Positions 7,910 through 41,316 of a stretch of 64,000 nt of DNA are shown here, one piece after another (position 1 is the stretch's first letter; the number at the start of each line of letters is the position of its first letter). This DNA comes from Nautilia sp. PV-1 (GTDB taxonomy: Bacteria; Campylobacterota; Campylobacteria; Campylobacterales; Nautiliaceae): contig NZ_CP026530.1 in the NCBI RefSeq assembly GCF_004006315.1, positions 62,001-126,000 on the forward strand. The letters run 5' to 3'. The position numbers and the translations under genes are program-made. The notes beneath the pieces were generated by a model, which was not told the DNA's origin, searched no databases, and saw nothing but the letters and a program-made list of their open reading frames with translations.

Positions 7910-9049
7910 ATGAAAAAGAAATTATTAGCATTGGGGCTTAGCGCATTAGTTGCAAGTACTTTAATGGCGAAAGATATTAAAGTTGGTGTTTTACAACCAT
8001 TAACAGGACCTATTGCGTCATTTGGTCAAAAAACACTTGACGGTATTAAACTTGTACATGAAAAATACAACAAACTTCCAAACGGTGATAAAATCGTATT
8101 GGTTGTAGTTGACAATCAGTTTGACAAAGTACAGACTGTTAACGGTTATAAAAGATTAGCTAGCGGTGAAAACGTAGTTGCAATTGAAGGGCCTCTTGCA
8201 AGTTCAATGGCATTAGCTGTAAAAAGATTCGCAGGAGCTACTAAAACTCCTACAGTTACACAGATTGCTACAAACCCAAGAGTTACAAAAGGTAGCAAAT
8301 ATCTAACAAGGGCATGTTTTACAGATGATTTCCAAGGTACTGTGGCTGCTAAATACGCACTTAAACACAATCTTAAAAATGCAGTAGTTGTATTCGATAT
8401 GAAACAGGATTATTCTGTAGGTCTTGCCAGAGCTTTTGAAAAAGCATATAAACAAGGCGGAGGAAAAATTCTTAAAAAACTGTTTATCAATACTGGTGAT
8501 AAAGACTTCAACGCACAGGTTGCACAGATTAAAAAACTTCATCCTCAGTTTATCTATACTCCGATTTATGCACCTGAAGAAGGACTGTTCTTAAGACAGT
8601 TAAGAGCGGCTGGAGTTAAAGCGCCTGTAATGGGTGGTGACGGTATTGCGGATCCTGGACTACTTAAAAAACTTGCAGGAAAAGCTGCAAACGGCGTAAT
8701 GTATACTGACCATTTTGACCCTGCAAAAGCGCCTACTCCGTTATCAAAACAGTTTATTAAAGATTTCAAAGCTAAATACGGAAGACTTCCAAGTGCGTTC
8801 GCGGCAACTGGAGCTGACGGATATTTATTAATTTATAACGCAATTAAACAATGCGATACTAAAGCAAACAAAACAAATCTTCAATTCAAACAGTGTATTA
8901 ACGATGCTTTAAGACATACTAAAAACCTTGAAGCTGTTACAGGTTATTTAACAATTGATCCTAAAACTGGAAACCCAGTTGACAAACCGGCTGTTATTGA
9001 AGCAATTAAAGACGGTAAAGTTGTATTTAAAGAGCTAATTAAGCCTTAA
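7910..9049 (+). CDS. Periplasmic branched-chain amino-acid-type binding protein
   Basis: A 379-residue ABC-transporter substrate-binding protein of the LivJ/LivK type I periplasmic fold. It has a cleavable signal peptide (MKKKLLALGLSALVASTLMA, cleavage before KD), then VGVLQPLTGPIASFGQKTLDG and the family segment EGPLASSMALAV near residue 91. The ligand may be Leu/Ile/Val or another amino acid or amide; sequence reading cannot decide. It has its own promoter and is followed by a strong terminator, as expected for a binding protein made in excess. The permeases livH and livM lie 2.2 kb downstream. Confidence 0.88.
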   Translation: MKKKLLALGLSALVASTLMAKDIKVGVLQPLTGPIASFGQKTLDGIKLVHEKYNKLPNGDKIVLVVVDNQFDKVQTVNGYKRLASGENVVAIEGPLASSMALAVKRFAGATKTPTVTQIATNPRVTKGSKYLTRACFTDDFQGTVAAKYALKHNLKNAVVVFDMKQDYSVGLARAFEKAYKQGGGKILKKLFINTGDKDFNAQVAQIKKLHPQFIYTPIYAPEEGLFLRQLRAAGVKAPVMGGDGIADPGLLKKLAGKAANGVMYTDHFDPAKAPTPLSKQFIKDFKAKYGRLPSAFAATGADGYLLIYNAIKQCDTKANKTNLQFKQCINDALRHTKNLEAVTGYLTIDPKTGNPVDKPAVIEAIKDGKVVFKELIKP

Positions 9050-9075
9050 TTACAGTTTTTCTCCCTTTTGGGAGT

Positions 9076-9118
9076 AAAAACACTAAAATGCATTATAAAA
9101 ATGCTGTTTAGTGTTTTT
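9076..9118 (+). terminator. Rho-independent terminator after the binding-protein gene
   Basis: Inverted repeat AAAAACACTAAA / TTTAGTGTTTTT with an inner GCATT/AATGC stem, ending in a T-run. A smaller CTCCC-TTTT-GGGAG hairpin precedes it at 9061-9074. It separates the binding protein from the signalling genes. Confidence 0.8.
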
Positions 9119-9141
9119 ATGAAGATATAAAAAGAGGAAAA

Positions 9142-10809
9142 ATGGATTTTAGTAAACCGATAGAAATAGCACATGATGTGTTTTGGGTAGGGTATGTTAT
9201 ACCCAACGATCCTTTTCAGTGCCATGTTTATTTAATTAAAAACGGAGAAGAGTCTATACTTATAGACCCGGGCAGTATGATAACTTTTCCTGTAGTTTTG
9301 GAAAAAGTGACATCTCTGGTAGATTTGAAAAATATCAAATATATAATAATGCATCATCAGGATCCTGATATAGTGGGATGTTATTCTACATTTGAAAAAA
9401 TAATGCCGAAAGCCGAAAGATATATCGTTACACACTGGCGTACCGAAATGCTTCTTAAACATTATATGTGGGATACGCCGTTTTATCTTATAGACCAGCA
9501 TAACTGGAAACTCAAAGCCGGCAAGAGGGAATTGGAGTTCGTATTTACTCCGTATGCGCATTTTCCGGGAGCTTTTTGTACTTATGACAAAAAAACCGGG
9601 ATTCTTTTTTCAAGCGATCTTTTCGGCGGATTGACGGAGGAGTTTTCTTTGTTTGCGAAGAATGTGGACGATTATTTTGAAGCGGCAAAACCTTTTCATA
9701 AACATTACATGCCGAGTCAGGAAGTACTCCATCATGCGTTAAAACAGGTGCAGAAAAAACATCCTTTAATGATAGCACCTCAACATGGGTCGATTATAAA
9801 AAAAGATTTGATAAATCCGTTAATAGAAAAATTAAAAGATCTGGAATGTGGGCTTTACCTTTTAGACGATTATGAGAGTGATCTGTATATTTTAAATAAA
9901 ACTGATGAGGTTTTAAAACAGTTTTTTAAAGACACGGTTTCTCTAAGTTCTTTTAATCTAGTGCTTAGAAATCTTTTTGACAATATTAAAAAAGTTATAC
10001 CGTCTATACAAAAAATAGAAATCTGCGGTATTTCCCCTTTATCGGAGGCAGAGCACTGTTTTTCTTTCGGGGAGGACCATAAAATCGTAGAAATTGACAA
10101 GATGGATGAAAATTACTCGTTCAAAAAAGAGCTTAAACAAAATGATAAAAAAATAGGCGATATCTATATTATAATCAATAAAAATATGAATAAAAGAGAA
10201 AAAAAACTTCTTGAAATGCTTTTAAATAAAATTGCGGTGCCTGTGGCCATTTCATTGGAAAAAGAGCTGATATTAAGAGAATTGGAAGACAACAATAAAA
10301 AACTTTACGAAAAATCTATTACGGATCCTTTGACTAAACTTTACAACAGAGAATATATGAAAGAATTTTTAAACAAAAAAATAGAAGAAGCCAAACGTTA
10401 TAATTTTCCTTTAAGCGTTGCTATGATAGATATAGATTTTTTCAAAAAAATAAACGATACATACGGACATTTGATAGGAGACTGTGTTTTAAAAGAGCTT
10501 TCAGAGCTTCTTAAAAATAATTTCAGAGGTTCAGATATTGTTTCGAGATACGGCGGGGAAGAAATATTTATTATTATGCCTTTTACGGATTGTGAAAATG
10601 CATGTAAAAAACTGGAATATTTCAGAAGTCTGGTAGAAGAATATACATTCTGCGACAAAAAAAGCGTTAAAATAACCATAAGCGCTGGTGTATGCGAATT
10701 TGACAAAGAAAATGACGGAATAGAAGATTTAATATTAAAAGTTGACAGAAAGGTTTATTTTGCTAAAAAACAAGGCAGAAATAAAGTAGTCTGCGAAAAG
10801 GGGGGATAA
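9142..10809 (+). CDS. Di-iron MBL-fold (ODP-like) sensor fused to a GGDEF diguanylate cyclase
   Basis: A 555-residue cytosolic protein. Residues 1-230 form a metallo-beta-lactamase domain of the flavodiiron/ODP type: HHQDPD at 71-76 (H72, D74, D76), H140, D159 in SSDLFGG and H215 in APQHGS match the di-iron ligand positions, with Asp for the usual Glu and Ile for the usual second His of that motif. There is no flavodoxin domain. Residues about 230-385 form a GAF-like or helical linker. The GGDEF domain follows, with GGEE at 471-474 and an RxxD inhibitory site (RGSD) five residues before it, so cyclase activity and product inhibition are expected. ODP relatives sense oxygen or iron; here O2 control of c-di-GMP is inferred. 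One base separates it from the PAS gene. Confidence 0.82.
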   Translation: MDFSKPIEIAHDVFWVGYVIPNDPFQCHVYLIKNGEESILIDPGSMITFPVVLEKVTSLVDLKNIKYIIMHHQDPDIVGCYSTFEKIMPKAERYIVTHWRTEMLLKHYMWDTPFYLIDQHNWKLKAGKRELEFVFTPYAHFPGAFCTYDKKTGILFSSDLFGGLTEEFSLFAKNVDDYFEAAKPFHKHYMPSQEVLHHALKQVQKKHPLMIAPQHGSIIKKDLINPLIEKLKDLECGLYLLDDYESDLYILNKTDEVLKQFFKDTVSLSSFNLVLRNLFDNIKKVIPSIQKIEICGISPLSEAEHCFSFGEDHKIVEIDKMDENYSFKKELKQNDKKIGDIYIIINKNMNKREKKLLEMLLNKIAVPVAISLEKELILRELEDNNKKLYEKSITDPLTKLYNREYMKEFLNKKIEEAKRYNFPLSVAMIDIDFFKKINDTYGHLIGDCVLKELSELLKNNFRGSDIVSRYGGEEIFIIMPFTDCENACKKLEYFRSLVEEYTFCDKKSVKITISAGVCEFDKENDGIEDLILKVDRKVYFAKKQGRNKVVCEKGG

Positions 10810-10810
10810 A

Positions 10811-11242
10811 ATGAGCAGAATGGTGAAGGTTGTTGACGAAGAGGTCCGTTTTGAAGATGTCAATAAAGAAAACAGACCGGTTGTTTCAAAAACAGATATC
10901 AGAGGAAAAATCACATATACCAATTCGGTATTCAGAGCATTGTCCGGATATGATAAAGGGGAGATGGAAGGACGTCCTCATAATATTGTAAGACATCCTG
11001 ACATGCCTAAAAAAGTATTTGAAGAGATGTGGGATACCATTTTAAAAGGTGAAGAATGGAGCGGAATTGTAAAAAATTTAAGAAAAGATGGAAAATATTA
11101 CTGGGTAGAAGCCACAATTATGCCTATAAAAGACGAAAATAATGCTATAATCGGTTTTATTTCTGCGAGAAGAAGTATCAGTGACGAAGTGAAAAAAGAG
11201 TACGAAAAAATTTACAAAGAAATGAGAGAAAAGGAAAAGTAG
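10811..11242 (+). CDS. Stand-alone PAS protein, Aer/CetB-like
   Basis: A 143-residue soluble protein that is almost only a PAS domain. The segment NIVRHPDMPKKVFEEMWDTI (residues about 58-77) and the WSGIVKNLRKDGKYYWVEA part are typical of FAD-binding energy-taxis PAS domains such as Aer and Campylobacter CetB. A short charged helix ends the protein and there is no output domain, so it probably works on a partner. It sits one base after the di-iron GGDEF gene and its stop directly abuts the livH start, so all are probably translated from one message. Confidence 0.8.
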   Translation: MSRMVKVVDEEVRFEDVNKENRPVVSKTDIRGKITYTNSVFRALSGYDKGEMEGRPHNIVRHPDMPKKVFEEMWDTILKGEEWSGIVKNLRKDGKYYWVEATIMPIKDENNAIIGFISARRSISDEVKKEYEKIYKEMREKEK

Positions 11243-12157
11243 ATGGATGTTGGATTTGTTTTACAGCAAATTGTAAACGGTTTTTCATTAGGTAGTATGT
11301 ATGCCCTTATCGCTATCGGGTATACATTGGTTTACGGTGTTCTTAGACTAATCAACTTTGCACACGGAGATATTATGATGGTAGGCGCTTTTATGGCGTT
11401 TATCTTTTTTAAAATATTAGGGCTTAACTTTTATGTAGCTGTGCTGTTTGCAATTATTTTTACGGCTGCAGTGGGTATTTTGACATATGCAAGCGCATAT
11501 AAACCTTTGCTTGACAAAGGTGCGCCTAAAATTTCACTTTTAATTACAGCAATCGGTATTTCGTTTTTCCTTGAATCTTTATTTAACGTAATTGCCAACC
11601 AGTATCTAGGAGGTACTTATCAGGCGTTTTATTTTCCAAAATGGTTTTCTCACATTATTCATATAGGTTCATTAACAGTGCCGGTGTTAACTATACTCGT
11701 ACCTATTTTAACGCTTGCTTTGTTGGGACTTGTACTTTTTATTTTATACAGAACAAAAATCGGTATTGCTATTAGGGCTCTTGCATTTGATATCCAGACA
11801 GTAAAGCTTATGGGAGCGGATTCTAATAAAATTATTGCGTTTGTATTCGCATTAGGAAGCGGTCTTGCCGCAATCGGCGGTATAGCTTATGCGATGGCTT
11901 ATCCGAGTATTGACCCGTATATGGGTATGCTTGTTGGTCTTAAAGCATTTGCCGCCGCTGTTGTAGGAGGTATCGGAAGTGTTACAGGTGCGGTTATTGG
12001 TGGATTTATTTTAGGATTTGCTGAAGTTGCCGTTCCGGGATTTTTTCCGGAACTAGGAGGATGGAAAGATGCGTTTGCATTTATATTCCTGATTTTCGTA
12101 CTTTTATTTAAACCTACAGGTATTATGGGAATAGACTTTGAAAGACAAAGGTTTTAA
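11243..12157 (+). CDS. livH: Branched-chain amino-acid ABC transporter permease LivH
   Basis: A 304-residue inner-membrane permease with about eight hydrophobic helices. The opening VNGFSLGSMYALIAIGYTLVYG and LINFAHGDIMMVGAF are hallmarks of LivH, as is the late GGIGSVTGAVIGGFILG motif that contacts the ATPase. It pairs with LivM, two bases downstream, as a heterodimeric channel. No livG or livF ATPase gene follows in this window. Confidence 0.92.
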   Translation: MDVGFVLQQIVNGFSLGSMYALIAIGYTLVYGVLRLINFAHGDIMMVGAFMAFIFFKILGLNFYVAVLFAIIFTAAVGILTYASAYKPLLDKGAPKISLLITAIGISFFLESLFNVIANQYLGGTYQAFYFPKWFSHIIHIGSLTVPVLTILVPILTLALLGLVLFILYRTKIGIAIRALAFDIQTVKLMGADSNKIIAFVFALGSGLAAIGGIAYAMAYPSIDPYMGMLVGLKAFAAAVVGGIGSVTGAVIGGFILGFAEVAVPGFFPELGGWKDAFAFIFLIFVLLFKPTGIMGIDFERQRF

Positions 12158-12159
12158 TA

Positions 12160-13212
12160 ATGGAAAAGGCAAAAGTAAAAATGGCAAACTTAAGCGCGCC
12201 GAAATATTTTGCGATTATTGCGGTAGTAACGGCGCTGTTTTTAGGATTTTTGTATATTTCTCCGAAATGGTTTAACGATTATACCATTACAGTTTTGGGA
12301 AATGTTTATATTTTCATAATATTGGCTGTAAGCTATAACCTGATCAATGGTGTAACAGGCCAGTTTTCACTAGAACCGAACGGATTTGTGGCAATCGGTG
12401 CGTATGTAACCGCTTTACTGATGTTGAGTCCTGATGTAAAGGCGGATATGTATATTATTGCTGATCCGTATCCTTTTATTAAAGATATATTTTTACCTAA
12501 TCCGTTTTTCACACTGATTATCAGCGGTATTGTTTCCTCGCTTGTGGCATTAACGCTTGCTTTCCCTGTATTTAGGGTTAGAGGAGACTATCTTGCTATC
12601 GTTACTTTGGGATTCGGATTTATTATTAGAATCTTTTTAATCAACAACCCGGAAATTTCAAACGGTTCGATGGGGCTTGATTCTATTCCTGGATTTGCGA
12701 GTTATTTTTGGATAGGGTTTAGTGCTCTGGTTACTGTTGTCCTCGTTTATAATATAGTTTATTCTAAATACGGAAGAGGAATGAAAGCCGTAAGAGACGA
12801 TGAGGATGCGGCATTGGCCATGGGTGTTAATACGTTTAAAGTAAAAACAATAGCATTTATGACAAGTGCGTTTTTTGAAGGAGTCGGAGGAGGGCTTCTT
12901 GCAAGTTCTATCGGTTCTATTTCACCGGATCAGTTTACATTTATGCTAACGTTCCAGTTATTGATTATTATTGTTCTTGGCGGTCTTGGAAGTATGAGCG
13001 GAGCGATTTTAGGTACTTTATTATTCCTTGGCGGTATGGAAGTATTGAGACCTTTAGACGATGCGACATGGACGTTAGGACCTGTTCACGGTATTCCTGG
13101 ACTCAGAATGGTTGTATTTAGTCTTATCCTTTTAGGAATAATGCTTTTTGCAAGAAAAGGTCTTTTCGGAGATAAAGAAATCTGGGATTATATAAAATTT
13201 AAAAAGAAATAG
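12160..13212 (+). CDS. livM: Branched-chain amino-acid ABC transporter permease LivM
   Basis: A 350-residue inner-membrane permease. The family marks are YNLINGVTGQFSLEPNGFVAIGAYV near residue 59, FRVRGDYLAIVTLGFG near 131 and AVRDDEDAALAMGVN near 211, followed by GGLGSMSGAILGTLLF, the ATPase-contact loop. It partners with LivH. Its C-terminal end runs straight to thiG with 15 bases between, rather than to livG. Confidence 0.92.
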   Translation: MEKAKVKMANLSAPKYFAIIAVVTALFLGFLYISPKWFNDYTITVLGNVYIFIILAVSYNLINGVTGQFSLEPNGFVAIGAYVTALLMLSPDVKADMYIIADPYPFIKDIFLPNPFFTLIISGIVSSLVALTLAFPVFRVRGDYLAIVTLGFGFIIRIFLINNPEISNGSMGLDSIPGFASYFWIGFSALVTVVLVYNIVYSKYGRGMKAVRDDEDAALAMGVNTFKVKTIAFMTSAFFEGVGGGLLASSIGSISPDQFTFMLTFQLLIIIVLGGLGSMSGAILGTLLFLGGMEVLRPLDDATWTLGPVHGIPGLRMVVFSLILLGIMLFARKGLFGDKEIWDYIKFKKK

Positions 13213-14062: not shown

Positions 14063-14824
14063 ATGAAAATAATAATCGGTTTGGCGGCTTTAGCCTTTTT
14101 TATATATATCGGTGCTGCTTTATATTTATATTTAACACAGGACAGTAAAATTTTTAACCGTAAATGGGCAAAACCGTATGAACCCGCCGTTGCCGAAAAA
14201 ATATATTTTATCACTAGTGACGGGATAAAGCTGGAAGGAGCATATACTAAAAACGGCGAAAAATTGCCTCTTGTTCTGTATTTCAGCGGTAACGCAAATA
14301 ATGTTATAGAGTTTTTGGATAAGATCGCGCCTAAAATTAAAAATTATAATTTTATAGGGTTTAATTATCCCGGATATGCCGGAAGCGAGGGTAAACCGTG
14401 TGAAAAATGTATACTTAAATACGCTTTGGAAATATATGATAAATATAAACCTCAAGTAGTAATAGGCAGGAGTCTCGGAACGGCCGTAGCTTCATACGTC
14501 GCATATAAAAGGCCTGTGAAAAAACTAGTTTTGATTACCCCTTTTGATTCTATATTGAATATTGCAAAAAACAAATACCCTTTATTGCCCGTGGAAGTGC
14601 TTGTAAAATATAAATTTAACGAGTATTTATGGGTTAAAGAATTAAATATACCTGTAAGCGTTCTGCTAGTCAAAGACGATGATATTATTCCTGAAGAAAA
14701 TATAAATAATTTATTAACGCATATAAAACATCTTGATAAGAAAATAACTGTTTCAGGTGTAAAACACGGAAATGTATATGAATATGAGAATATTACAGAA
14801 GTTTTAAAACAGCTTTTGGATTAA
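14063..14824 (+). CDS. Alpha/beta hydrolase, BEM46/YqkD-like
   Basis: A 253-residue protein with one N-terminal transmembrane helix (about residues 2-24) anchoring a serine-hydrolase domain. The oxyanion region is LYFSGNANNV near residue 74, the nucleophile elbow is GRSLGTAVA (serine near residue 136), and an acid (VKDDDIIPEE) and a histidine (GVKHGNVYEY) complete a likely triad. The substrate is unknown; an esterase or peptidase-type activity on the membrane face is all that can be said. It converges with the GGDEF gene on the minus strand, ending in the same bases. Confidence 0.82.
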   Translation: MKIIIGLAALAFFIYIGAALYLYLTQDSKIFNRKWAKPYEPAVAEKIYFITSDGIKLEGAYTKNGEKLPLVLYFSGNANNVIEFLDKIAPKIKNYNFIGFNYPGYAGSEGKPCEKCILKYALEIYDKYKPQVVIGRSLGTAVASYVAYKRPVKKLVLITPFDSILNIAKNKYPLLPVEVLVKYKFNEYLWVKELNIPVSVLLVKDDDIIPEENINNLLTHIKHLDKKITVSGVKHGNVYEYENITEVLKQLLD

Positions 14825-15861
14825 TAATAAACTACACGGTTTCTTCCGGTTTTTTTCGCTACGTATAACGCTTTGTCTGCATTAATAAGAGCCTGTTGAA
14901 TTTCAGATTTTTCTTCGGGTTTGAATGTATAAACTCCCATACTTGCCGTTATCTGTAAATTTTTTCCGTTTTCAAGAGGAATCTGCAGTGTTCTGATTCT
15001 GTTTAATATTTTATTGATTAATGTATCTGTCTCTTTAAGGTTAACATCATACAGAAGTAAAACGAATTCTTCACCGCCTATTCTTGCAAGAAAGTCATTT
15101 TCCCTGATTATCTGTTTTATTGCATTTACAAACTCTTTTAAAACTATATCTCCCGTTTTGTGGCCGTATGTGTCATTTACTTTTTTAAAGTGGTCTATAT
15201 CCATCATGATAATACTTATAACTTTTCCTTCCCTTACAGCCTGTTTTAACAGTTTGTGGCCTATTTTAAAAAATGCGCGCCTGTTAAAAGTATCCGTTAA
15301 CTCGTCAACAAGGGCGAGACGTTCAAGTTTTTTACTTTGTTCGATATTCTCTTTATTATATCTTTCGAGTTGAACGGCTACCAAAAAACCTAAAATAGAA
15401 AATGCGATTATACTCATTATTAACGTAACGTATGAATATAAATCTATATTGTAATGGCCGGTAATTCTTATTAAAAGCAGGGTAAGGAGAGAATATACAG
15501 AAATATATACCGCTATTCTTTTATTTGTAACGATATAAGCCGTCATTAACGTAAAATCCAGCCATATAGGTATAAATATATCTCTTGTGGATAAAACGGT
15601 CTGTGCGCTAATAAAAGTAACTAATACGAAATATGTTATCAGCTGAATTAATTTAAGTTTTTCTTTGCACTTTAAAAGACATATATACATAGAGATTAAA
15701 AACAGCAATAAACCTGTAGTATTTAGTGTGGCTAATACGTTTTCCGGAATAAAGTCTATCGTTCTTAATACAAAAAAAGTAAATGTAATAACAATAGCCA
15801 GAAAAAGACTTATCTTAGTAACGTTATATTTAAAATATTTTAAATAATTTATATCGTTCAT
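14821..15861 (-). CDS. Membrane diguanylate cyclase (GGDEF)
   Basis: Makes cyclic di-GMP from two GTP. The 346 residues hold about five to six hydrophobic helices (about 15-165), a short coiled coil, and a GGDEF domain with LVDELTDTFNRRAFF, DIDHFKKVNDTYGH and the active-site GGEEF at 262-266. An RxxD inhibitory site is at 253-256. The membrane region resembles no named sensor that I can identify. The -10 box lies only about 8 bases before the ATG and no ribosome binding site is visible, so the mRNA may be leaderless. Confidence 0.93.
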   Translation of the reverse strand: MNDINYLKYFKYNVTKISLFLAIVITFTFFVLRTIDFIPENVLATLNTTGLLLFLISMYICLLKCKEKLKLIQLITYFVLVTFISAQTVLSTRDIFIPIWLDFTLMTAYIVTNKRIAVYISVYSLLTLLLIRITGHYNIDLYSYVTLIMSIIAFSILGFLVAVQLERYNKENIEQSKKLERLALVDELTDTFNRRAFFKIGHKLLKQAVREGKVISIIMMDIDHFKKVNDTYGHKTGDIVLKEFVNAIKQIIRENDFLARIGGEEFVLLLYDVNLKETDTLINKILNRIRTLQIPLENGKNLQITASMGVYTFKPEEKSEIQQALINADKALYVAKKTGRNRVVYY

Positions 15862-19861: not shown

Positions 19862-21058
19862 TTAATATGCATGGTCATCAGTTAAGATTTCTTCTTTTGT
19901 AATAGGACCAGCTTTTTTCATTTGATACCAAACGTAAATAATGTATCCTAAAACAAAAGGAACAGCAACACTAACCCATGCCATAACCATTAGTGTATAT
20001 TTAGAACCAGATGCGTTTTGAATAGTTAAACTGCTTTGTAAGTCAGCATAGCTTGGATAAAACGCTGTACCGTTAAGACCGGCTAATGTAAATACGATAA
20101 TTCCGATTAATACTGTACCTAAACCTGCAGCCCAGATACCTTTTTTAGAACTACCGAATCCGCTTTGGAATACACCAAGAACAAATAAAACAACACCTAC
20201 TAGGAATACGATTAACTGAATAGCACCGAATGCTAATAGGTTTTGTAAATATTTACCTGCAACTAATGAAACAGTACCTTTTGGATCATGAATATTGTAT
20301 GCATAACCTTTCATGGTAATTAAACCGTAAAGAACAATTACTAAAGCTACAAGTAAAACGATGAAACATCTTTTTACTACCGCTCTTAGTCTTGCGATTA
20401 CATCTGCAAAATCATTATCGTCAAGGTCGTTAATTAGCCATAACGCTCCTAAAATTCTAGCTACTGCAAAAACTAATACACCCATTGCAAGGTTAAACCA
20501 TGCACCGTGTCTGAAGTCGATAGCAGCTTCAAGACCTCTTAGGTTGAATCCGTTTGCAGCAGTTCCCCATTCTAAAACTCTTGTAGCAGGATCGTAAGTA
20601 AAGTTTGAACCTGTAAAGAATGTACCAACAGCTGCACCGATTAAAACGATACCAACTAAACCGTTGAAATATAGGAAAAATTTATATGCGCCTTTACCGA
20701 TAAGGTTGTTGCTTCTGTTCATATATTCATATGATACCGCCTGAAGTACGAATGCGAAAAGAATTAACATCCATACCCAGTAAGCACCACCGAATGATAC
20801 TGAGTAAAATAGTGGGAATGCCGCGTATAACGCACCACCGAACATAACTAATGTTGTAAATGTAAGTTCCCATTTTCTACCAAGTGAATTTAAGATACCT
20901 CTCTCTTCCACTTCAGTTTTAGCTACGTGAAATAGTGTTTGTCCACCTTGAACAAATGTCATAAATAAGAATAGTCCTCCAAGAACCGCAACGATTATCC
21001 ACCAGTAAAACTGTAGATAAAAATGCGTTGCGTCCACTGTAATTGGTGCCCAAGTCAT
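19862..21058 (-). CDS. cydB: Cytochrome bd oxidase subunit II
   Basis: The 398-residue structural partner of CydA in the inner-membrane quinol oxidase that reduces O2 to water. It is strongly hydrophobic with about nine helices. LNSLGRKWELTFTTLVMFGGALYAAFPLF near residue 55 aligns with the conserved N-terminal region, although the DGFDLG motif of E. coli CydB is replaced by VQGGQT, a divergence I associate with the Campylobacterota/Bacteroidota branch. It is directly downstream of cydA and upstream of the small membrane protein. Confidence 0.9.
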   Translation of the reverse strand: MTWAPITVDATHFYLQFYWWIIVAVLGGLFLFMTFVQGGQTLFHVAKTEVEERGILNSLGRKWELTFTTLVMFGGALYAAFPLFYSVSFGGAYWVWMLILFAFVLQAVSYEYMNRSNNLIGKGAYKFFLYFNGLVGIVLIGAAVGTFFTGSNFTYDPATRVLEWGTAANGFNLRGLEAAIDFRHGAWFNLAMGVLVFAVARILGALWLINDLDDNDFADVIARLRAVVKRCFIVLLVALVIVLYGLITMKGYAYNIHDPKGTVSLVAGKYLQNLLAFGAIQLIVFLVGVVLFVLGVFQSGFGSSKKGIWAAGLGTVLIGIIVFTLAGLNGTAFYPSYADLQSSLTIQNASGSKYTLMVMAWVSVAVPFVLGYIIYVWYQMKKAGPITKEEILTDDHAY

Positions 21059-22632
21059 TAGTGCGCTCCTTTTGGTCCGTTTTTAACGACCGTAAATAGG
21101 ATTTTAAGCTCTGCAATACCAAGGATTACGAATGCTGTTAAGAACATAAAGAATGTTGCTTGCACATTTGTTAAGGCGATTGGTGTAACAGATTCGCTTG
21201 TCGGTAAAATACCGAATACTGTCCAAGGCTGTCTTCCGATTTCTGCAGTCATCCATCCGAAACTTGTACCGATCCATGGTAACGGAACTGAAAGTACCGC
21301 AAGTTTTTGAACAAGTGTATTGTTTTCGAAAGTACCTTTTATGATTGCAACGTAAGCTAAAATGAATAGTAAAATGAACCAGAATCCAAGTGCAACCATG
21401 ATATGGAATGAATAGAATACTGGTGCTACAGGCGGATACAGTTTAGTAGGGTCAGTTAAATATCCGTATCCCATTAAGTCTGCTCTTGTAACAGTTACAC
21501 CGTCAACTGTCGCAACTGGTGCATAGAATTTAGCTTTTGCAGCTTCCATTCCGGCTTTGTCTCCTCTTGCTTTAGCAATATGGTATGCTTTAAGTGCTTC
21601 AATTGCGATAGCACCTTCTTCATGTAATTTTTCAAACGGCCAGATTCCGTATTTAGGATTTCCGTTTACTAAATCTTTTAAACCTGGCACAAATGCATTG
21701 ATATTTCTTTTCCCAAGAAGTGACAACATTCCAGGAAGTTCGATTTTAAATGCAAATGCCTGATCATTGCTAGCAGTAGTTCTAGGATCTACTGTTTTAG
21801 GAATACCGATCGCTACTATTGGTGCACCTTTTTCACCTACGATCAGACCTTCTGCCGAAGCAATTTTAGTAGGCTGTGTGTTCGCTACTTCATATGCGTG
21901 TTCGTCACCGATTACCGCTGTAAAGATTGATGCGATTAAACCGAATGCTGCTGCAACTGTTGCAGATTTTTTTGCAAATTCTTTATGTTTGCCTCTAAGC
22001 AGATATAAAGATGAAATACCAAGAACGAATACAGCTGCCAATGTATATGCGCTGCTCACAACGTGTAAGAACTTAACCTGTGCAACAGGCTGAGTAATCA
22101 TTGCAAAAAAGTTTGTCATTTCAAGTCTAGCGTTGTCTATATTGTATCTGTAGAATTCGCTGCTTGGATGCTGCATAAATCCGTTTGCAATAAGAATCCA
22201 TAATGCAGAAAGATTTGAACCTATTGCAAGCAGCCAAGATGCAGTTAAGTGAACTCCTTTGCTAACTCTTTTCCATCCGAAGAATGCGATAGCCGCAAAT
22301 GTCGCTTCTAAGAAGAACGCAACAATGCCTTCAACCGCTAATGGTGCTCCGAATAAGTCACCAACAACCCATGAGTATGTAGACCAGTTTGTTCCAAACT
22401 CAAATTCGTGAATAATACCTGTAGATAAACCGATTGCAAAGTTAATACCGAAGATTAACTGCCAAAATTGCGTAATTTCTTTCCATTCAGCTTTTCCAGT
22501 TTTTACGTAAATCGTTTCAAAAAACGCTACTATAAACGACATACCGAGAGTAAACGGTACGAAGAAAAAGTGGAAAAGTGCCGTCATAGCAAACTGGGCT
22601 CTCGCCCATTCAAGCATGCTGTAATCTACCAT
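21058..22632 (-). CDS. cydA: Cytochrome bd oxidase subunit I
   Basis: The 524-residue heme-bearing subunit that oxidises quinol and reduces O2. Heme ligands are placed at His21 in FHFFFVPFTLGMS, a histidine in QVKFLHVVSS and the methionine in GWMTAEIGRQPW. GDEHAYEVANTQPTKIASAEG marks the start of a long Q-loop (long-loop subfamily, like E. coli). In a vent anaerobe this high-affinity oxidase would remove O2 or support microaerobic respiration. It sits between a DUF4492 protein and cydB. Confidence 0.96.
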   Translation of the reverse strand: MVDYSMLEWARAQFAMTALFHFFFVPFTLGMSFIVAFFETIYVKTGKAEWKEITQFWQLIFGINFAIGLSTGIIHEFEFGTNWSTYSWVVGDLFGAPLAVEGIVAFFLEATFAAIAFFGWKRVSKGVHLTASWLLAIGSNLSALWILIANGFMQHPSSEFYRYNIDNARLEMTNFFAMITQPVAQVKFLHVVSSAYTLAAVFVLGISSLYLLRGKHKEFAKKSATVAAAFGLIASIFTAVIGDEHAYEVANTQPTKIASAEGLIVGEKGAPIVAIGIPKTVDPRTTASNDQAFAFKIELPGMLSLLGKRNINAFVPGLKDLVNGNPKYGIWPFEKLHEEGAIAIEALKAYHIAKARGDKAGMEAAKAKFYAPVATVDGVTVTRADLMGYGYLTDPTKLYPPVAPVFYSFHIMVALGFWFILLFILAYVAIIKGTFENNTLVQKLAVLSVPLPWIGTSFGWMTAEIGRQPWTVFGILPTSESVTPIALTNVQATFFMFLTAFVILGIAELKILFTVVKNGPKGAH

Positions 22633-30826: not shown

Positions 30827-31942
30827 ATGGAAATTAAAACACCCGCATATGTTATAGAAGAAAACCTGCTTGAAAAAAACCTTAAAATTCTTGACAGGGT
30901 GCAAAAAGAAGCCAATGCCAAAATTCTTGTGGCTTTAAAAGGTTACGCTACTTGGTCCACTTTTGATTTGCTTGAAAAATATCTCAGTGGAGCTACCGCA
31001 AGCGGTTTATGGGAAGCGAAACTTGCCAATATGAAACCATGGGAAGTGCATACATACTGTCCGGCATTTAAAGAAAGCGAAATTGACGAAGTGGCTGATA
31101 TTTCACATACTGTGGTATTTAACAGTTTTAATCAGCTTGAAAGATTTGAAGACAGGGTAAAAGAAAAATCTTTAATAGGACTTAGGGTAAATCCCGGAGT
31201 GTCAAGTTCTCCGGTACCGTTATACGATCCCTGCGCTCCGTTTAGCCGTCTTGGTGTTCCAAAAGCCAATTTCAAAGCAGATAAACTTAAAAACGTAAGC
31301 GGGCTGCATTTTCATGCGCTTTGCGAACAGTTGGACACGGCGCTGGAAAAAACTCTGGAAGGGTTTGAAAAGCTTTACGGAGAGTATCTTAAAGACATGC
31401 AGTGGGTGAATTTCGGCGGAGGGCATCATATTACGAGAGAAGGATACGATGTCGATCATCTGATAGAAATGATAAAAGAATTCAGAAACAGATATCCGAA
31501 TATAAAAGACGTTTATTTAGAACCTGGCGAAGCGGTGGGGCTTAACGCCGGATATCTGATGGCGGAGGTGCTCGATATTATTGACAACGGGATGAAAATA
31601 GCCATACTCGATACATCTGCCGAGGCTCATATGCCAGATGTATTAGCCATGCCTTACAGACCTGTAGTAAGGGGAGCGGGAGAGCCTAATGAGAAAAAAT
31701 ACACTTACAGACTCGGGGGAGTTACATGTCTTGCCGGGGACGTCATAGGGGATTACAGTTTCGATGAGCCTTTACAGATAGGAGATAAAATTATATTTGA
31801 AGATATGGCAATTTATACAATGGTTAAAAATACGGCGTTTAACGGTATAAAACTTCCTGATATAATTATAAAAAGAAAAGACGGATCAGTTTATAAAGCA
31901 AGAGAATTTCATTATGAGGATTTTAAAAACCGTTTAAGTTAA
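30827..31942 (+). CDS. nspC: Carboxynorspermidine/carboxyspermidine decarboxylase
   Basis: A PLP fold-III decarboxylase that makes spermidine (or norspermidine) from the carboxy form; Campylobacterota use this route. The 371 residues show the PLP lysine segment ILVALKGYATWS near residue 28, HFHALCEQ near 163, NFGGGHHIT near 195, LEPGEAVG near 228 and CLAGDVIGDYSF near 302. The start is the ATG at 30827 with AAAAGG. Its last 20 bases overlap the convergent EIIC-EAL gene. Confidence 0.93.
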   Translation: MEIKTPAYVIEENLLEKNLKILDRVQKEANAKILVALKGYATWSTFDLLEKYLSGATASGLWEAKLANMKPWEVHTYCPAFKESEIDEVADISHTVVFNSFNQLERFEDRVKEKSLIGLRVNPGVSSSPVPLYDPCAPFSRLGVPKANFKADKLKNVSGLHFHALCEQLDTALEKTLEGFEKLYGEYLKDMQWVNFGGGHHITREGYDVDHLIEMIKEFRNRYPNIKDVYLEPGEAVGLNAGYLMAEVLDIIDNGMKIAILDTSAEAHMPDVLAMPYRPVVRGAGEPNEKKYTYRLGGVTCLAGDVIGDYSFDEPLQIGDKIIFEDMAIYTMVKNTAFNGIKLPDIIIKRKDGSVYKAREFHYEDFKNRLS

Positions 31943-33902
31943 AGTTCTCGCTGAATTCTTTTACTTTTCTAAACGGTATGGCAGGAGAGAATATATATCC
32001 CTGTATATAGTCTATTCCCATTTCTTGTAATAAATTTAACTGTGATTTTTTTTCCACCCCTTCCGCCACTACTTTTATATTTAAATCTTTACAGAGGTTT
32101 ATTGTGTTTTTACAGACCAAATAGCCTTTTTTGTCTTCTATTTCGTCAATGAGGGATTTGTCCAGTTTCAGCTCTTCTATTGTATATTTAATAAGCGTTT
32201 CGAGAGATGAATAGCCTACTCCAAAGTCGTCTACTGAGATAGGGAAATTTTTGCTTTTGAGTTTTTGAATGTTTTTTTGCGCATCTTTATTTATAAAACT
32301 TCTTTCAATAATTTCAAACATTATATTTTCATTTTCGAATATTGATATGATTTTTTCCATAGCATCGCTGCTTTTTAACGTATCTGGATGGAGATTAACG
32401 CTTATTTGAGGGTAAAAATTTTCATTCTTCCATTTCTGCAGGTCTTTTTTTACTTCTTTGCACACCCAGACGTCTATAATGGGAGCCAGTCCAGATTTTT
32501 CTATGATATCCAAAAAGAAAGGGCCTTTTATCTGACCGTTGTCGTTGTATCTTATAAGCGCTTCGTATTTTAACGCTTTATTGTTTTTAATGTCTATTTT
32601 CGGCTGGTAATAGATTAATAAATTGTCCTGGTTTAAATTGTTTATAAGTTCGTTTAATTTTGTATTCGCCTCTATTACTTCCTGATTTGCCAAAAAAGCT
32701 TTAATGTCTTTTTTAGCTCTGATTTCTTCTTCAATTTCCAGGTTTGTCTGAAGTATGTGTTTTTTGTTTTCGAGTGACTGTATTTTGAAATATTTTTTAA
32801 TGAAATACGAATATACGGCCGTATCTACAGCCAGTAAGAATATTTGAAATAAAGGTATGGAAAATGAATTGCTTTTAAGAAAACCGTCAAATAAAATAGG
32901 AGTGGACCAGACTACGTGGTAAGAGGTAAAATGTACAGGCACCGTATGTACAAATATATATGCGGCTGCAAGATTAAAAAGAGGCAGCAGCACAAACGGC
33001 AGAAACAGAAATCTGTTAAATACAACGATTAAGAAAATCAGAATATCGTTTATATTAAATATCACGAAAGGGGACGCTATTTTGGCTACCGTTTTAACGG
33101 TAGAGTTTTTAGCGTTAATTAAAATAGCAATAAGAAGACTGGCGCCTATTCCGGCTCCTCCGATATTGATAAAAATCCTGTGAAATTCTCCGTAGGTAAG
33201 ATTTGGAAACATATGTTTAAAAAGTATTTCTTTTCCGAAAAGTGCATTTACCATATGTTCCCCGTGTATTCCGAAAAACCAGAAAAGCTGTACGAAAAAA
33301 TCTCTTATTGCGAGAATTACAATATCCGGAAGATTGAGTTTTAAAGGATTGTATTTATCGATAATTATGTCCATAACCGCGTCTATGGCTATATATGCCG
33401 CCATAGCCGCAATGTATGCAGCAAAAAATACGAAGATATAATTAAAAAATCTGTATATATGATAGTTTCCGTCTGTTACGTTTATATGCAGTGAAAATTT
33501 TGGGTAAAGTATTTTTAAAAAGTATGTACTTACAATCGGTGCAAAAATCGTAGCAGCCGTAAAACCGTACGGCAAAACCAGTTTTGAGTGAGGGTGCTCA
33601 TATATCAGAATGGACAGAAATGTAACCATTGAAAGAATAATGGCTATTATTTCGGAAACTTTTATCCTTTTCGCCACAAAAAATGCAATTGACACTATAG
33701 CTACGAGAGAAGTGAATGAAAGAACGGATCTTTCAAAACGGAAAACTATATCCGTAGGTATAATGTTTATGTGAAAGTATGATACGAAAATATTAAAAAG
33801 AGCAAGAAAAGCGCTAAAAATAATAAAAGGTATTACAGCTATAAAAGCCTCTTGAAGAGTTATAATAAATGCAATGATTTTTTTATTCAAAAAAAATTTC
33901 AA
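31923..33902 (-). CDS. PTS EIIC-like membrane domain fused to an EAL c-di-GMP phosphodiesterase (copy 2 of tandem)
   Basis: A 659-residue protein. Residues 1-375 form a polytopic domain of the lactose/cellobiose EIIC fold: PYGFTAA (111-117), GIHGEH with His213, the loop INIGGAGIGASLL, and FVIFNIND (279-286) before a second helix bundle. The acidic residue of the family's NEP motif is Asp286 here. A helical linker precedes an EAL domain with EAL at 448-450, the SVNLHPDT asparagine, EIIERS, VDDFG, KLDKS, VAEGVE and QGY, so it should cleave c-di-GMP. No EIIA or EIIB gene is nearby. A sensory role for the EIIC part is inferred. Start codon TTG at 33902. Confidence 0.88.
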   Translation of the reverse strand: MKFFLNKKIIAFIITLQEAFIAVIPFIIFSAFLALFNIFVSYFHINIIPTDIVFRFERSVLSFTSLVAIVSIAFFVAKRIKVSEIIAIILSMVTFLSILIYEHPHSKLVLPYGFTAATIFAPIVSTYFLKILYPKFSLHINVTDGNYHIYRFFNYIFVFFAAYIAAMAAYIAIDAVMDIIIDKYNPLKLNLPDIVILAIRDFFVQLFWFFGIHGEHMVNALFGKEILFKHMFPNLTYGEFHRIFINIGGAGIGASLLIAILINAKNSTVKTVAKIASPFVIFNINDILIFLIVVFNRFLFLPFVLLPLFNLAAAYIFVHTVPVHFTSYHVVWSTPILFDGFLKSNSFSIPLFQIFLLAVDTAVYSYFIKKYFKIQSLENKKHILQTNLEIEEEIRAKKDIKAFLANQEVIEANTKLNELINNLNQDNLLIYYQPKIDIKNNKALKYEALIRYNDNGQIKGPFFLDIIEKSGLAPIIDVWVCKEVKKDLQKWKNENFYPQISVNLHPDTLKSSDAMEKIISIFENENIMFEIIERSFINKDAQKNIQKLKSKNFPISVDDFGVGYSSLETLIKYTIEELKLDKSLIDEIEDKKGYLVCKNTINLCKDLNIKVVAEGVEKKSQLNLLQEMGIDYIQGYIFSPAIPFRKVKEFSENFNLNGF

Positions 33903-33954: not shown

Positions 33955-36000
33955 TTAAACACTGAACGACTCTGCATACCGTTTGACCTTGTTAAAAGGT
34001 ATTGCAGGAGAAAAGTAATATCCCTGTACCAGATCGACATCTATAAATTTTACGCTGTTAAACTGCTGTTTGGTTTCAACTCCTTCTGCGACTACCGTGC
34101 ATTCCAGATCGTGACACAGACTTACTATATGTTTACAAACAACGTAGCCTTTGTGCGTGTCTATTATATCAATCAGGGATTTGTCGATTTTTAACTCATA
34201 AATATTTAATTTTGTAATTACCTCCAGGCTCGAATATCCTATGCCGTAATCGTCTATGGCAATTTTGAAGCCGTGTTTTTGAAGGTTTTTAATGTTTTGT
34301 TCGGCATTTTTACCGTAAAGAAAGCTTCTTTCAATTATTTCAAACACCACTTTTTTATCTTTAAAAATCTGAATTATTTTTTCAACAGCATCTTTGCTGC
34401 TGAGGGTGTCCGGATGAAGGTTAACGCTTATTTCGGGGTAAAAACTTTCATTTTGCCATTTTTCAATATCTTTTTTTACTTCTTTGCACACCCATATGTC
34501 TATAATAGGAGCCAGTCCCGCTTCTTCGATTATAGGCAGAAATGAGGGGCCGGTTATTTTGCCGTTGTCGTTATATCTTATTAACGCTTCGAATTTATTG
34601 CATTTGTTGTGTTTAATGTCTATTTTTGGCTGATAATATATTTTTAAATTATGTTTATTGAGTGAACTGATTGTCTCATCCAGTTTTGCCTGTGCGGCTA
34701 TTAGCTGTTTTTGGGCTTTAAAAGCGTATACACCTTCTTTTGATTTTATTTCTTCCGAAATATCGAGGTTGTGCTGAAGGATTTCTTTATGGGACGAATA
34801 TGATTTGGAGTTTACGAATTTTTTGGTGAAATAAATATAAACGGAAGTATCTATAACGAGCAAAAACAGCTGCAGAGCCGTGACCCATAAATTGCCTCCG
34901 GTTTTTAAATACGTATCTATAAATACGGGTGTCGTCCACGCAACATAATAATCGGTAAAATTTATATGTACGAAATGTAAAAAAGAATAGGCTATTACGA
35001 TATTTAAAATCGGAAGGAATACAAAAGGTATTAAAAAGAATCTGTTTAAAACGATTACGGAATATATCAGCAGGGTGTTAATGTTAAAAAACACAAAAGG
35101 AGTCGAAATTTTTGTTATGTACATTAAAGCTTTTTCTTTAAAATAGATCCAAAAAGAGATCAGCATACCGAGTCCTACACCGGCTCCTCCTATAAGAACG
35201 AACATTCTGTTGAATTCTCCAAACGTAAGGTTCGGGAAAGCTTCTTTAAAAAGTATGGCCTTTCCGAAAAGACCGTTTACGGTGTGGCTGCCGTGTATTC
35301 CGACAAACCACAGTATCTGTACCAGAAAGTCTCTAATTATCAGGGTTAATATATCAGGAATGTTTAATTTCAAAGGATTGAAGTTATGTAAGAAGTAACT
35401 GACTATCACTGCAAAGAATATATATAAATTAACGGCTGCAATATAGGCGGCAAAAAATACAAATAGATAATTAAAAAGTTTATAAATGTGATAATTCCCG
35501 TCTTCTATATTGATATTTAAGGTTAGTTTCGGATAAAACAGTTTCAAAAGGTAGGTTGAGAGCACCGGGGATATCAGCGTGGCCGGGGTAAAGCCGTAAG
35601 GAAGAACAATGGGGATAGATATGTCGTCTATAAGTTTAATTGTGGAGGTATCACCCTGGATATTGAAAATATATATTGACGAATTTTCTATAAGTACGAG
35701 TGTGACAAATACGCTGACGGATAAAATAACGGCGATTATCTGTGAAACTTTTAACCTCTGTGCAAAAAAATAGGATATTGCTATTACAGATACGATAGAT
35801 GAAAACGACTGAAGTATTTTTGAAAGATACAGAATGTTTTTTTGGGAAATAAAAAAAAGATCCGTATTAAAATAAAGCAAGAAAGAAAACAGCAGGGTAA
35901 TAACCGACGTTAACAGAAAAAAAGGAACAATTGCCGTAAATGCTTCTTGTAATGTAATAATAAAAAGCAATATTTTTTTATTTTTTATAATTTCGTTCAA
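33955..36000 (-). CDS. PTS EIIC-like membrane domain fused to an EAL c-di-GMP phosphodiesterase (copy 1 of tandem)
   Basis: A 681-residue paralogue of the next gene, 52 bases upstream of it. It has the same EIIC-type domain (PYGFTPA at 134-140, GIHGSH with His236, GGAGVGLG, FFNINT) followed by an EAL domain with EAL at 471-473, SVNLHPDT, EIIERS, IDDYG, KIDKS and VAEGVE, all catalytic positions intact. The NEP glutamate position is Thr309. A loop around residues 104-130 is about 20 residues longer than in the partner. The TTG at 36000 is chosen because AAGAAGG precedes it and it aligns with the partner's start; an ATG 20 codons upstream (36060) has no ribosome binding site. Confidence 0.87.
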   Translation of the reverse strand: MNEIIKNKKILLFIITLQEAFTAIVPFFLLTSVITLLFSFLLYFNTDLFFISQKNILYLSKILQSFSSIVSVIAISYFFAQRLKVSQIIAVILSVSVFVTLVLIENSSIYIFNIQGDTSTIKLIDDISIPIVLPYGFTPATLISPVLSTYLLKLFYPKLTLNINIEDGNYHIYKLFNYLFVFFAAYIAAVNLYIFFAVIVSYFLHNFNPLKLNIPDILTLIIRDFLVQILWFVGIHGSHTVNGLFGKAILFKEAFPNLTFGEFNRMFVLIGGAGVGLGMLISFWIYFKEKALMYITKISTPFVFFNINTLLIYSVIVLNRFFLIPFVFLPILNIVIAYSFLHFVHINFTDYYVAWTTPVFIDTYLKTGGNLWVTALQLFLLVIDTSVYIYFTKKFVNSKSYSSHKEILQHNLDISEEIKSKEGVYAFKAQKQLIAAQAKLDETISSLNKHNLKIYYQPKIDIKHNKCNKFEALIRYNDNGKITGPSFLPIIEEAGLAPIIDIWVCKEVKKDIEKWQNESFYPEISVNLHPDTLSSKDAVEKIIQIFKDKKVVFEIIERSFLYGKNAEQNIKNLQKHGFKIAIDDYGIGYSSLEVITKLNIYELKIDKSLIDIIDTHKGYVVCKHIVSLCHDLECTVVAEGVETKQQFNSVKFIDVDLVQGYYFSPAIPFNKVKRYAESFSV

Positions 36001-36142
36001 AAAAGGCCTTCTTTGAAAAGAGATACTGCTTATATACATATTATCAAATAAAAGTGACATAAAAGTGAAAAAACATATTAATGTATATGCAGTTTGTTAC
36101 GGGTGTGTAAATTCGTTTAATAATGCATAATTTCATCTTTGG

Positions 36143-39744: not shown

Positions 39745-40867
39745 ATTTTTAATAATTTCATTATCGGTAATACTGTTAATATCACCTTTTTTAAGCAATA
39801 TATTAAAACTTCCTATTTCCATGGTTGAAATAACTCTTGGAGCGGTATTCAGCGCAGTCGGGCTTATACATCATAACGAAATGTTCAATTTGCTGGCGGA
39901 AGTGGGATTTTTGTATTTAATGCTTTTAGCCGGAATGGAGGTAAATTTAAAAGATCTGTTAAAAATGGAGAAATCCCTTTTTAAAAAAGGCGTTCTTTTT
40001 TTATTTATTTTAGTTGTGTCGAGTTTTATTTTTGTGTTTTTATTCAGCTATTCAAAAGTGTTTTTGGTAATTATGCCACTGATTTCCATAGGTCTTATGA
40101 TATCAATTCAGCAGGAAATAGGTAAAAAAGAGTGGCTGGATCTGGCAATTAAAATAGGCGTGCTGGGAGAACTTATTTCTATCCTTATTTTAACGGTCGT
40201 AAGCGGATATTTTGAGTTCGGCTTTGATAAAAAACTTTTAATCAATATAGGCATACTGTTTTTGTTCTTAATTTTTCTTGTTTTGGCGTTTTTTCTTATC
40301 AGAGCAATTTTTTGGTGGTTTCCGAAACTTAAACATTATCTGATGCCGGGGGTGGATAAATATCATCAGGATGTAAGAATAGCAATCAGTTTTTTCTTTA
40401 TTATGATCGCTTTTTTAATGAAAATACATCTTGACGTTGTACTCGGCGCTTTTGTTGTAGGGGTGTTTATTGCAACGTTTTTTGAGCACAATAAAGACCT
40501 TGAACACAAACTTGCGCCTTTTGGATTCGGGTTTTTGATTACTATATTTTTCGTGCATGTCGGAAGCTCGCTAAATCTTTCTTTGATTTCTATGCAGATG
40601 CTGAAAGATTCTTTAATGATAGTGGGAGTTATGATTCTTGTGAGAATTTTTGCTTCTGCTGTTTTTTATACGATGCTGGGTATTAAAAAAACGCTTCTTT
40701 TTGCGTTGTCGCTTTCTATGCCTTTAACGTTATTGATTGCAACCGCAACCCTTGCGCATCAAAACGGGACTATAAGCGATTACTGGTACAATGTGCTTGT
40801 TTTTACGGCTGTTCTTGAAGTAATAATCGTTATGATAAGTGTGAAAATAATAGAGAAAAAATTTTAG
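39734..40867 (+). CDS. Cation:proton antiporter, KefB/CPA2-type membrane domain
   Basis: A 377-residue membrane protein with about 11-12 helices and no cytoplasmic RCK domain. The pattern SNILKLPISMVEITLGAVFSAVGL near the start, GFLYLMLLAGMEVNL, and KIHLDVVLGAFVVGVFIATFFEHN near residue 236 are CPA2-like. It probably exchanges Na+ or K+ for H+; direction and ion are not readable. It overlaps the bioB stop by 11 bases and ends at a terminator. Confidence 0.82.
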   Translation: MSAEFLIISLSVILLISPFLSNILKLPISMVEITLGAVFSAVGLIHHNEMFNLLAEVGFLYLMLLAGMEVNLKDLLKMEKSLFKKGVLFLFILVVSSFIFVFLFSYSKVFLVIMPLISIGLMISIQQEIGKKEWLDLAIKIGVLGELISILILTVVSGYFEFGFDKKLLINIGILFLFLIFLVLAFFLIRAIFWWFPKLKHYLMPGVDKYHQDVRIAISFFFIMIAFLMKIHLDVVLGAFVVGVFIATFFEHNKDLEHKLAPFGFGFLITIFFVHVGSSLNLSLISMQMLKDSLMIVGVMILVRIFASAVFYTMLGIKKTLLFALSLSMPLTLLIATATLAHQNGTISDYWYNVLVFTAVLEVIIVMISVKIIEKKF

Positions 40868-41316
40868 CTGTAAAGCGTATACAGCTCTTTTTCTTCAAAC
40901 TCGACCCTTGCTTTAAGGGCTTTTCCGAGTTTTTCAAGTTCGTTTTTAAACTGTTCTGATTCAATTTTTTTAACGTTGTCAAATCTGTTTATAAATCCTG
41001 AAATTGCTTTTGAGATCGATTTCATTTCTTCCTGTTTCTGATTTATAAAATTTAAGATTTTTTCGTTGTATTTATATTTGCTTTTCATATACGTGTAAAA
41101 GTAGTTATCCTCATAAATTATGTGCAGTCTGTATTCGTAATGAAACTTTTTAAGTATTTCCGGGATTTTTTCAAAATTCTGTTTTTGAAGGTGTTTTTCG
41201 ATTTTGTTAAAAAGTGAAAAAAGTGTTTGATGATCGTCTTTTAATTCAATGATCAGTTTGTCTTCATAAGTATAAATTTTTCTGAGTTTTGCCAGTATGT
41301 TTTTTAGTATGCCCAT
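40864..41316 (-). CDS. Hemerythrin-like (HHE) protein
   Basis: A 150-residue helical protein with the HHE pattern: DDHQTLF (His29), FHYEYRLHIIYEDN (His59, His65, Glu69) and a late RVEFEEKELY. These would bind a di-iron site, though the final histidine expected in hemerythrin is replaced by acidic residues. The first 20 residues are an added basic amphipathic stretch (MGILKNILAKLRKIY). Oxygen or iron binding is possible but unproven. It faces the antiporter gene. Confidence 0.75.
   Translation of the reverse strand: MGILKNILAKLRKIYTYEDKLIIELKDDHQTLFSLFNKIEKHLQKQNFEKIPEILKKFHYEYRLHIIYEDNYFYTYMKSKYKYNEKILNFINQKQEEMKSISKAISGFINRFDNVKKIESEQFKNELEKLGKALKARVEFEEKELYTLYS
40866..40892 (+). terminator. 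Terminator of bioB/antiporter unit, in the hemerythrin-like 3' end
   Basis: Stem AGCTGTA / TACAGCT with loop AAGCGTA and then CTTTTTCTT. It starts inside the antiporter stop codon and lies within the end of the convergent gene. Confidence 0.7.

Follow-up and report, generated by a model that had tools for sequence, protein, structure and literature searches.

A probable ODP-controlled diguanylate cyclase encoded in the liv locus of Nautilia sp. PV-1

Introduction

This study investigated which signal might be passed to a diguanylate cyclase by the metallo-beta-lactamase (MBL) domain to which it is fused in Nautilia sp. PV-1, a hydrothermal-vent bacterium. The gene lies in a 64,000-nucleotide stretch of the genome (contig NZ_CP026530.1, positions 62,001 to 126,000; hereafter the window), and a first-pass annotation of the window, made from the sequence alone, had proposed a flavodiiron-like MBL half joined to an active-looking GGDEF domain. 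The oxygen- and redox-sensing enzymes of c-di-GMP metabolism that are already known employ heme (globin, PAS), hemerythrin, flavin, or disulfide sensors (PMC8846402). The related Nautilia profundicola has been described as strictly anaerobic and in need of a means to detect oxygen, and for this species a PAS protein was named as a candidate oxygen sensor and cytochrome bd as an O2 defence (PMC2628731).

Architecture of the protein

Domains were assigned by using Pfam and NCBIfam profiles, an AlphaFold model, Foldseek, and DSSP. The open reading frame occupies exactly positions 9142-10809 on the forward strand, begins with ATG, comprises 555 codons, and is preceded by an AGAGG ribosome-binding-like sequence (Table 1). 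Pfam identified an ODP domain and a GGDEF domain, and the GGDEF model was the only NCBIfam model above its cut-off. The absence of a flavodoxin domain, as proposed by the first-pass annotation, was confirmed among the Pfam matches of the 555-aa protein, which also contained neither a rubredoxin nor a hemerythrin domain (PF01814). The ODP and GGDEF parts were thus both recovered, but the two-part architecture was not, because the AlphaFold model of the full protein (mean pLDDT 84.6) revealed a GAF-like domain and a long helix between them. Among 16 full-length relatives, the mean pairwise identity was 66% in the ODP domain, 53% in the GGDEF domain, and 28% in residues 241-390, the least conserved part. 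We refer to the protein as ODP-DGC.

Table 1. Coordinates of the ODP-DGC gene, its domains and motifs, and the surrounding liv genes in the window
Feature	Position	Strand	Basis
ODP-GAF-GGDEF protein, 555 aa	9142..10809	+	ORF list; Pfam ODP and GGDEF
N-terminal ODP (di-iron MBL fold) domain, residues 1-240	9142..9861	+	PF19583; Foldseek; conservation
HQDPD motif, predicted metal ligands H72, D74, D76, then I77	9355..9369	+	aligned with TmODP/TdODP HQDPDV and flavodiiron HxExDH
H140, predicted metal ligand	9559..9561	+	alignments
D159, predicted bridging metal ligand	9616..9618	+	alignments
H215, predicted metal ligand, within PQHGSI	9784..9786	+	alignments
GAF-like middle domain with N-terminal helix, residues 241-350	9862..10191	+	AlphaFold models; Foldseek
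Long helix 351-393 into GGDEF, likely coiled coil	10192..10320	+	DSSP on model
GGDEF diguanylate cyclase domain, residues 393-548	10318..10785	+	PF00990 144.7 bits; TIGR00254 171 bits
Inhibitory site RxxD, R462-G-S-D465	10525..10536	+	alignment
Active-site GGEE, G471-E474	10552..10563	+	invariant in 16 relatives
livK-type substrate-binding protein, upstream	7910..9049	+	PF13458; synteny in 18 Nautiliaceae genomes examined
Strong hairpin, U-rich 3' arm, between livK and ODP-DGC	9075..9119	+	folding z-score -5.0
Single PAS-domain protein, 143 aa, occasional neighbour	10811..11242	+	PF08447 PAS_3
livH permease, downstream	11243..12157	+	PF02653; synteny
livM permease, downstream	12160..13212	+	PF02653; synteny

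The ODP domain and its predicted metal site

The Pfam ODP profile PF19583 matched residues 25-216 over its entire length (1-194 of 194) with 214 bits (cut-off 27.2; E 2e-63), whereas the generic Lactamase_B profile reached 51.5 bits on the same protein. The nearest PDB relatives of the N-terminal domain by sequence were the ODPs of Thermotoga maritima (TmODP; 6qrq, E 2e-30) and Treponema denticola (TdODP; 6qnm, E 7e-24), with flavodiiron proteins behind both at 1e-13 and weaker, and every PDB sequence match belonged to one of these two groups. A Foldseek search with the AlphaFold model retrieved the ODP chains of 6qrq, 6qwo, and 6r9n with target-normalised TM values of 0.82-0.88, the matched structures comprising apo, zinc-bound, and peroxy-diiron forms. 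These results agree with the proposed ODP/flavodiiron-like nature of this half; no clustering with unrelated MBL enzymes was found, and an unrelated MBL hydrolase is ruled out by the PDB sequence matches.

The six residues that had been named as ligands (H72, D74, D76, H140, D159, and H215) were present at those positions and invariant in 16 of 16 aligned full-length relatives, and the same six were invariant in histidine-kinase-fused and stand-alone ODPs. The H-x-D-x-D...H...D...H set of TmODP and TdODP is therefore complete in ODP-DGC, and residues 1-240 are its most conserved part (69 of 240 columns invariant among 16 relatives). The motif reads HQDPDI in this protein, HQDPDV in TmODP and TdODP, and HxExDH in flavodiiron proteins. 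The first-pass annotation had considered Asp for Glu and Ile for His as changes that might tune this particular protein toward sensing; however, HQDPD is followed by I, V, or L in each of the 53 stand-alone ODPs examined and in every intact fused one, and a special meaning of the two changes is ruled out by their occurrence throughout the family.

A flavodiiron enzyme is ruled out by the missing flavodoxin domain, the ODP-type motif, and the better ODP match. We also considered an active oxidoreductase, whether an O2/NO reductase or a hydrolase, that is merely fused to a GGDEF domain. Such a reading would account for the complete set of catalytic di-iron ligands, but the protein has neither a flavodoxin nor a rubredoxin domain to supply electrons, its ligation is of the ODP type, and the fusion partners of related proteins are all signalling outputs; such an enzyme is hardly credible. 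A sensor of NO or nitrogen oxides, in which a site derived from flavodiiron NO reductases reports nitrate or nitrite reduction stress, is improbable. The sequence similarity to flavorubredoxin and FprA and the growth of N. profundicola by nitrate ammonification (PMC3701875) are in its favor, but the clade has ODP-type HQDPD rather than flavodiiron HxExDH ligation and its nearest characterised relatives bind O2.

The cyclase and middle domains

The Pfam GGDEF match at residues 393-548 (E 3e-42) contains GGEE(I) at 471-475 and an I-site, RGSD, at 462-465. Both had been described as intact, and the alignment upheld this: GGEE and D465 were found in 16 of 16 full-length relatives and R462 in 15 of 16. 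The further cyclase motifs DxLT (as DPLT), IDIDFF with a metal-binding Asp, and GHxxGD were also present, and the spacing from RxxD to GGEE matches that in PleD. On the basis of these intact-looking motifs, the domain is predicted to be an active cyclase.

In the AlphaFold models of residues 241-390, the GAF-like domain is preceded by a helix and followed by another of 43 residues, which enters the GGDEF domain; the models showing the middle domain had mean pLDDT values of 84-85. Foldseek with this part alone returned mostly GAF domains (PDE5A, NlhI, and phytochromes) with a best E of only 1.4e-3, and Pfam GAF had no match in the 555-aa protein. The middle domain is thus probably, although not certainly, GAF-like. 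Because it is so weakly conserved, with zero invariant columns in the 16 relatives, a role in transmission and dimerisation is a better fit than one as a specific ligand site.

Distribution and phylogeny

Searches for relatives detected the fusion in other Nautiliaceae and far beyond the family. The ODP-GAF-GGDEF architecture was found in other families of Campylobacterota, in Desulfurobacteriaceae and other Aquificota, and in Thermodesulfatator, and it spans three phyla (Campylobacterota, Aquificota, and Thermodesulfobacteriota). Aquificota abound in stand-alone ODPs: of 121 genomes, 105 had an ODP match with an E-value of 1e-40 or lower, and most of these matches lay in frames of approximately 260 aa. 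About half of the strong ODP matches in Campylobacterota lay in frames of at least 450 aa, and those that were read were either GGDEF fusions or ODP-HisKA-HATPase histidine kinases. The kinases comprised L002, L008, L027, L212, L217, and L218, and L027 carries an extra PAS domain. Since ODP is also fused to histidine kinases, it behaves as an interchangeable signal-input module.

We then compared the ODP domains in a tree. The GGDEF fusions formed one clade (support 92/91; 93/90 in a second build), which includes ODP-DGC, and the kinase fusions formed a second clade adjoining the cyclases (99/95; 97/88). Stand-alone ODPs, including TmODP and TdODP, formed a third and distant clade (100/99), and the branch between the fused-sensor and chemotaxis ODPs amounted to 1.7-2.7 changes per column. 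Two Nautiliaceae copies (L015 and L012) were nested among Aquificota sequences, suggesting that the gene has moved between vent bacteria, as it appears.

Both fused clades share Q-C-H at 26-28, H98, and R100, and position 188 is H in the cyclases, E in the kinases, and R in stand-alone ODPs; a few deep-branching cyclases depart from these patterns. These clade-specific residues could underlie differences in the chemistry of the site or in the signal that is sent. Given these systematic differences, the separate clade, and the long branch, the O2 chemistry of ODP-DGC may differ from that of the chemotaxis ODPs.

The liv locus in Nautiliaceae

The ODP-DGC gene lies within a branched-chain amino-acid transporter operon, after livK and ahead of livH-livM, and is followed by the PAS gene. 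The region upstream of the gene (9050-9141) folded with a z-score of -5.0 and contains a 45-nt, AU-rich hairpin, which was not called by a GC-based terminator scan. This hairpin is a candidate attenuator or partial terminator. Because it separates the gene from livK, ODP-DGC may be expressed by read-through, and it is possible that the hairpin is an attenuator that sets high livK expression apart from low downstream expression.

The slot between the liv genes varied considerably among Nautiliaceae. It held an intact ODP-DGC in five genomes (G000, G001, G002, G009, and G017), a degenerate copy in four (G003, G007, G014, and G016), a fossil in G008, and only the PAS gene in G010, and it was empty in eight (G004, G005, G011, G012, G013, G015, G019, and G020). 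The orthologue in G002 was about 91% identical. The fossil, a 208-aa frame between livK and livH (L162 4357-4980, -), has two internal deletions that join residues 1-29, 235-307, and 434-551 of the 555-aa protein in frame. Having been lost from many Nautiliaceae, the gene is not essential. No linkage to liv genes was seen by synteny outside Nautiliaceae; with the linkage confined to this family and the gene often lost there, a conserved function shared with the Liv transporter is weakly founded and we do not infer one. A conserved partnership with the PAS protein is ruled out by L139, L140, and L141, which lack the PAS gene, and by L171, which has it without ODP-DGC. The PAS protein occurs as tandem copies in L151.

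The degenerate copies belong to a sister genus (L016 622-2124, -; L017 1417-2943, +; L029 655-2154, -; L030 628-2142, -), and their orthology rests on position, their branch in the tree being long (1.7). In all four species, H72 is changed to N, H140 to Y, and H215 to Y, and GGEE and GHxxGD are lost, whereas the RxxD I-site is kept. The frames are free of stops over about 500 aa and evolve under purifying selection (w about 0.13-0.30, with dS saturated), which disfavors their being pseudogenes. The joint loss of the three His ligands and the catalytic motif is expected if the sensor serves to control the cyclase, and it supports the view that the two act as one device. The persistence of the frame and the I-site suggests a c-di-GMP-binding role for the degenerate protein, which may be a metal-free c-di-GMP receptor.

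These copies also bear on the possibility that the ODP domain survives as a relic with a structural or dimerisation role and that the real input enters through the GAF-like domain or through a partner, for example the PAS protein or components of Liv. Four species retain, at this same locus, a copy that lacks three His ligands, so the scaffold can be useful without metal. Nevertheless, no intact member departs from the ligand set, conservation is far higher in the ODP domain than in the GAF-like domain, and neither the PAS neighbour nor the liv linkage is conserved; we therefore give the relic little credence.

Proposed function

On the basis of the sequence evidence, ODP-DGC is probably a diguanylate cyclase of the cytoplasm that is under the control of a non-heme di-iron sensor of the ODP type; its metal, O2 binding, cyclase activity, sign of regulation, and physiological output are inferred in the following scheme. 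In an anoxic cell, the ODP domain would carry a diferrous centre, and O2 would bind to it to yield a peroxo-diferric state, as in TdODP and TmODP. A resulting change in ODP dimer packing might be relayed by the GAF-like domain and the long helix to the two GGDEF domains and alter how these meet, thereby changing the output of c-di-GMP, with product feedback at the I-site. Our best guess at the sign is that the cyclase would be active when reduced and inhibited by O2, by analogy with Bhr-DGC of Vibrio cholerae. Exposure to O2 would then lower c-di-GMP and release motility in the anaerobe. That O2 turns the enzyme off is a guess and the weakest step of the scheme.

The genome encodes cytochrome bd, and no heme-copper oxidase was found in the genome searches; together with the need of the strictly anaerobic N. 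profundicola to detect oxygen, this finding supports a role for ODP-DGC as an O2 sensor. The genome also has 29 GGDEF matches and one PilZ match. From ODP-DGC, an oxygen-sensitive cell probably takes its cue to settle or to move. For strict anaerobes, the signal sensed could equally be Fe(II) or NO.

The fluids of hydrothermal vents are rich in Fe(II). If ODP-DGC were chiefly a sensor of metal availability, the occupancy of the di-iron site by Fe(II), and not O2, would change the dimer and hence c-di-GMP synthesis. The Fe(II)-rich setting and the published title on the T. denticola ODP, which names it a sensor of Fe[II] and oxygen (Muok et al. 2019, cited in PMC7666581), agree with this explanation. 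However, the neighbours are amino-acid transport genes and no linkage to iron-uptake genes was found, and the Fe(II) and O2 signals are inseparable from sequence; we regard a chiefly Fe(II)-sensing role as rather unlikely and retain the O2-responsive cyclase as the preferred reading.

A wider picture can be offered tentatively, as a possibility rather than an expectation. ODP may be a general modular gas/iron input domain of vent and subsurface bacteria that serves c-di-GMP (ODP-GAF-GGDEF), two-component (ODP-histidine kinase), and chemotaxis outputs. The Nautiliaceae ODP-DGC would have entered the liv operon and, in one genus, have become metal-free and cyclase-dead with its I-site kept, maybe as a transporter-tied c-di-GMP receptor.

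Comparison with known systems

The ODPs of T. denticola (6qnm and 6r9n) and T. maritima (6qrq and 6qwo) have PF19583, the ligands, HQDPD, and the fold in common with ODP-DGC. However, they act as stand-alone proteins, with a cytoplasmic chemoreceptor and CheA as the recipients of their signal, whereas ODP-DGC is a covalent fusion with GAF-like and GGDEF domains, belongs to a separate clade, and has H rather than R at 188 and Q-C-H at 26-28. The closest ODP clade is that of the Campylobacterota ODP-histidine kinases, which share the FQCH and THxR signature but differ in their HisKA-HATPase output, in E at 188, and in that no GAF-like domain was found in them. Flavodiiron proteins (FprA, ROO, and the flavorubredoxin NorV) share the MBL di-iron fold and most of the ligands, but they are catalytic O2/NO reductases with a flavodoxin domain and the HxExDH motif.

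Among cyclases, Bhr-DGC of V. cholerae, a hemerythrin-GGDEF protein, is likewise governed by a non-heme di-iron sensor; it is redox-regulated and acts in low oxygen, but its four-helix hemerythrin fold is unrelated, and it autoxidises and forms no stable oxy adduct (PMC9388753). It has also been described as O2-repressed (PMC8846402). DgcO/DosC, PdeO/DosP, and BpeGReg (globin-coupled or heme-PAS) similarly connect an O2 input to a c-di-GMP output (PMC8846402), but their sensors are heme-based and differ in fold. Diguanylate cyclases that respond to oxygen or redox state are already known, and ODP as the sensor of one would be the new part. A 2022 census of c-di-GMP sensory inputs made no mention of an ODP or MBL sensor (PMC8846402), and no report of an ODP-GGDEF or ODP-diguanylate cyclase fusion was found in the searchable, openly accessible literature. 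The domain combination is presumably already in databases, and we would expect automated annotation to label the protein an MBL-fold diguanylate cyclase.

If true, an ODP-controlled cyclase would add a sensor chemistry in which chemotaxis relatives form a stable peroxo adduct, and it would provide the strict anaerobes of vents with a direct switch from O2 or Fe(II) to biofilm. The cyclase and kinase branches, together with a naturally metal-dead version, would allow the signalling mechanism to be compared between related proteins.

Other genes in the window

The window contains several further genes related to c-di-GMP or oxygen. A second GGDEF protein of 346 aa, with no domain assigned to its N-terminal half, is encoded at 14821-15861 (-), the third gene beyond livM and on the opposite strand. 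The neighbouring genes at 31923-33902 (-) and 33955-36060 (-) each encode an EAL protein whose N-terminal membrane domain resembles PTS EIIC (Pfam PTS_EIIC and EAL). Subunit I of the cytochrome bd oxidase lies at 21058-22632 (-; genome 83073-84608), and a stand-alone hemerythrin is encoded at 40864-41316 (-; genome 102873-103247).
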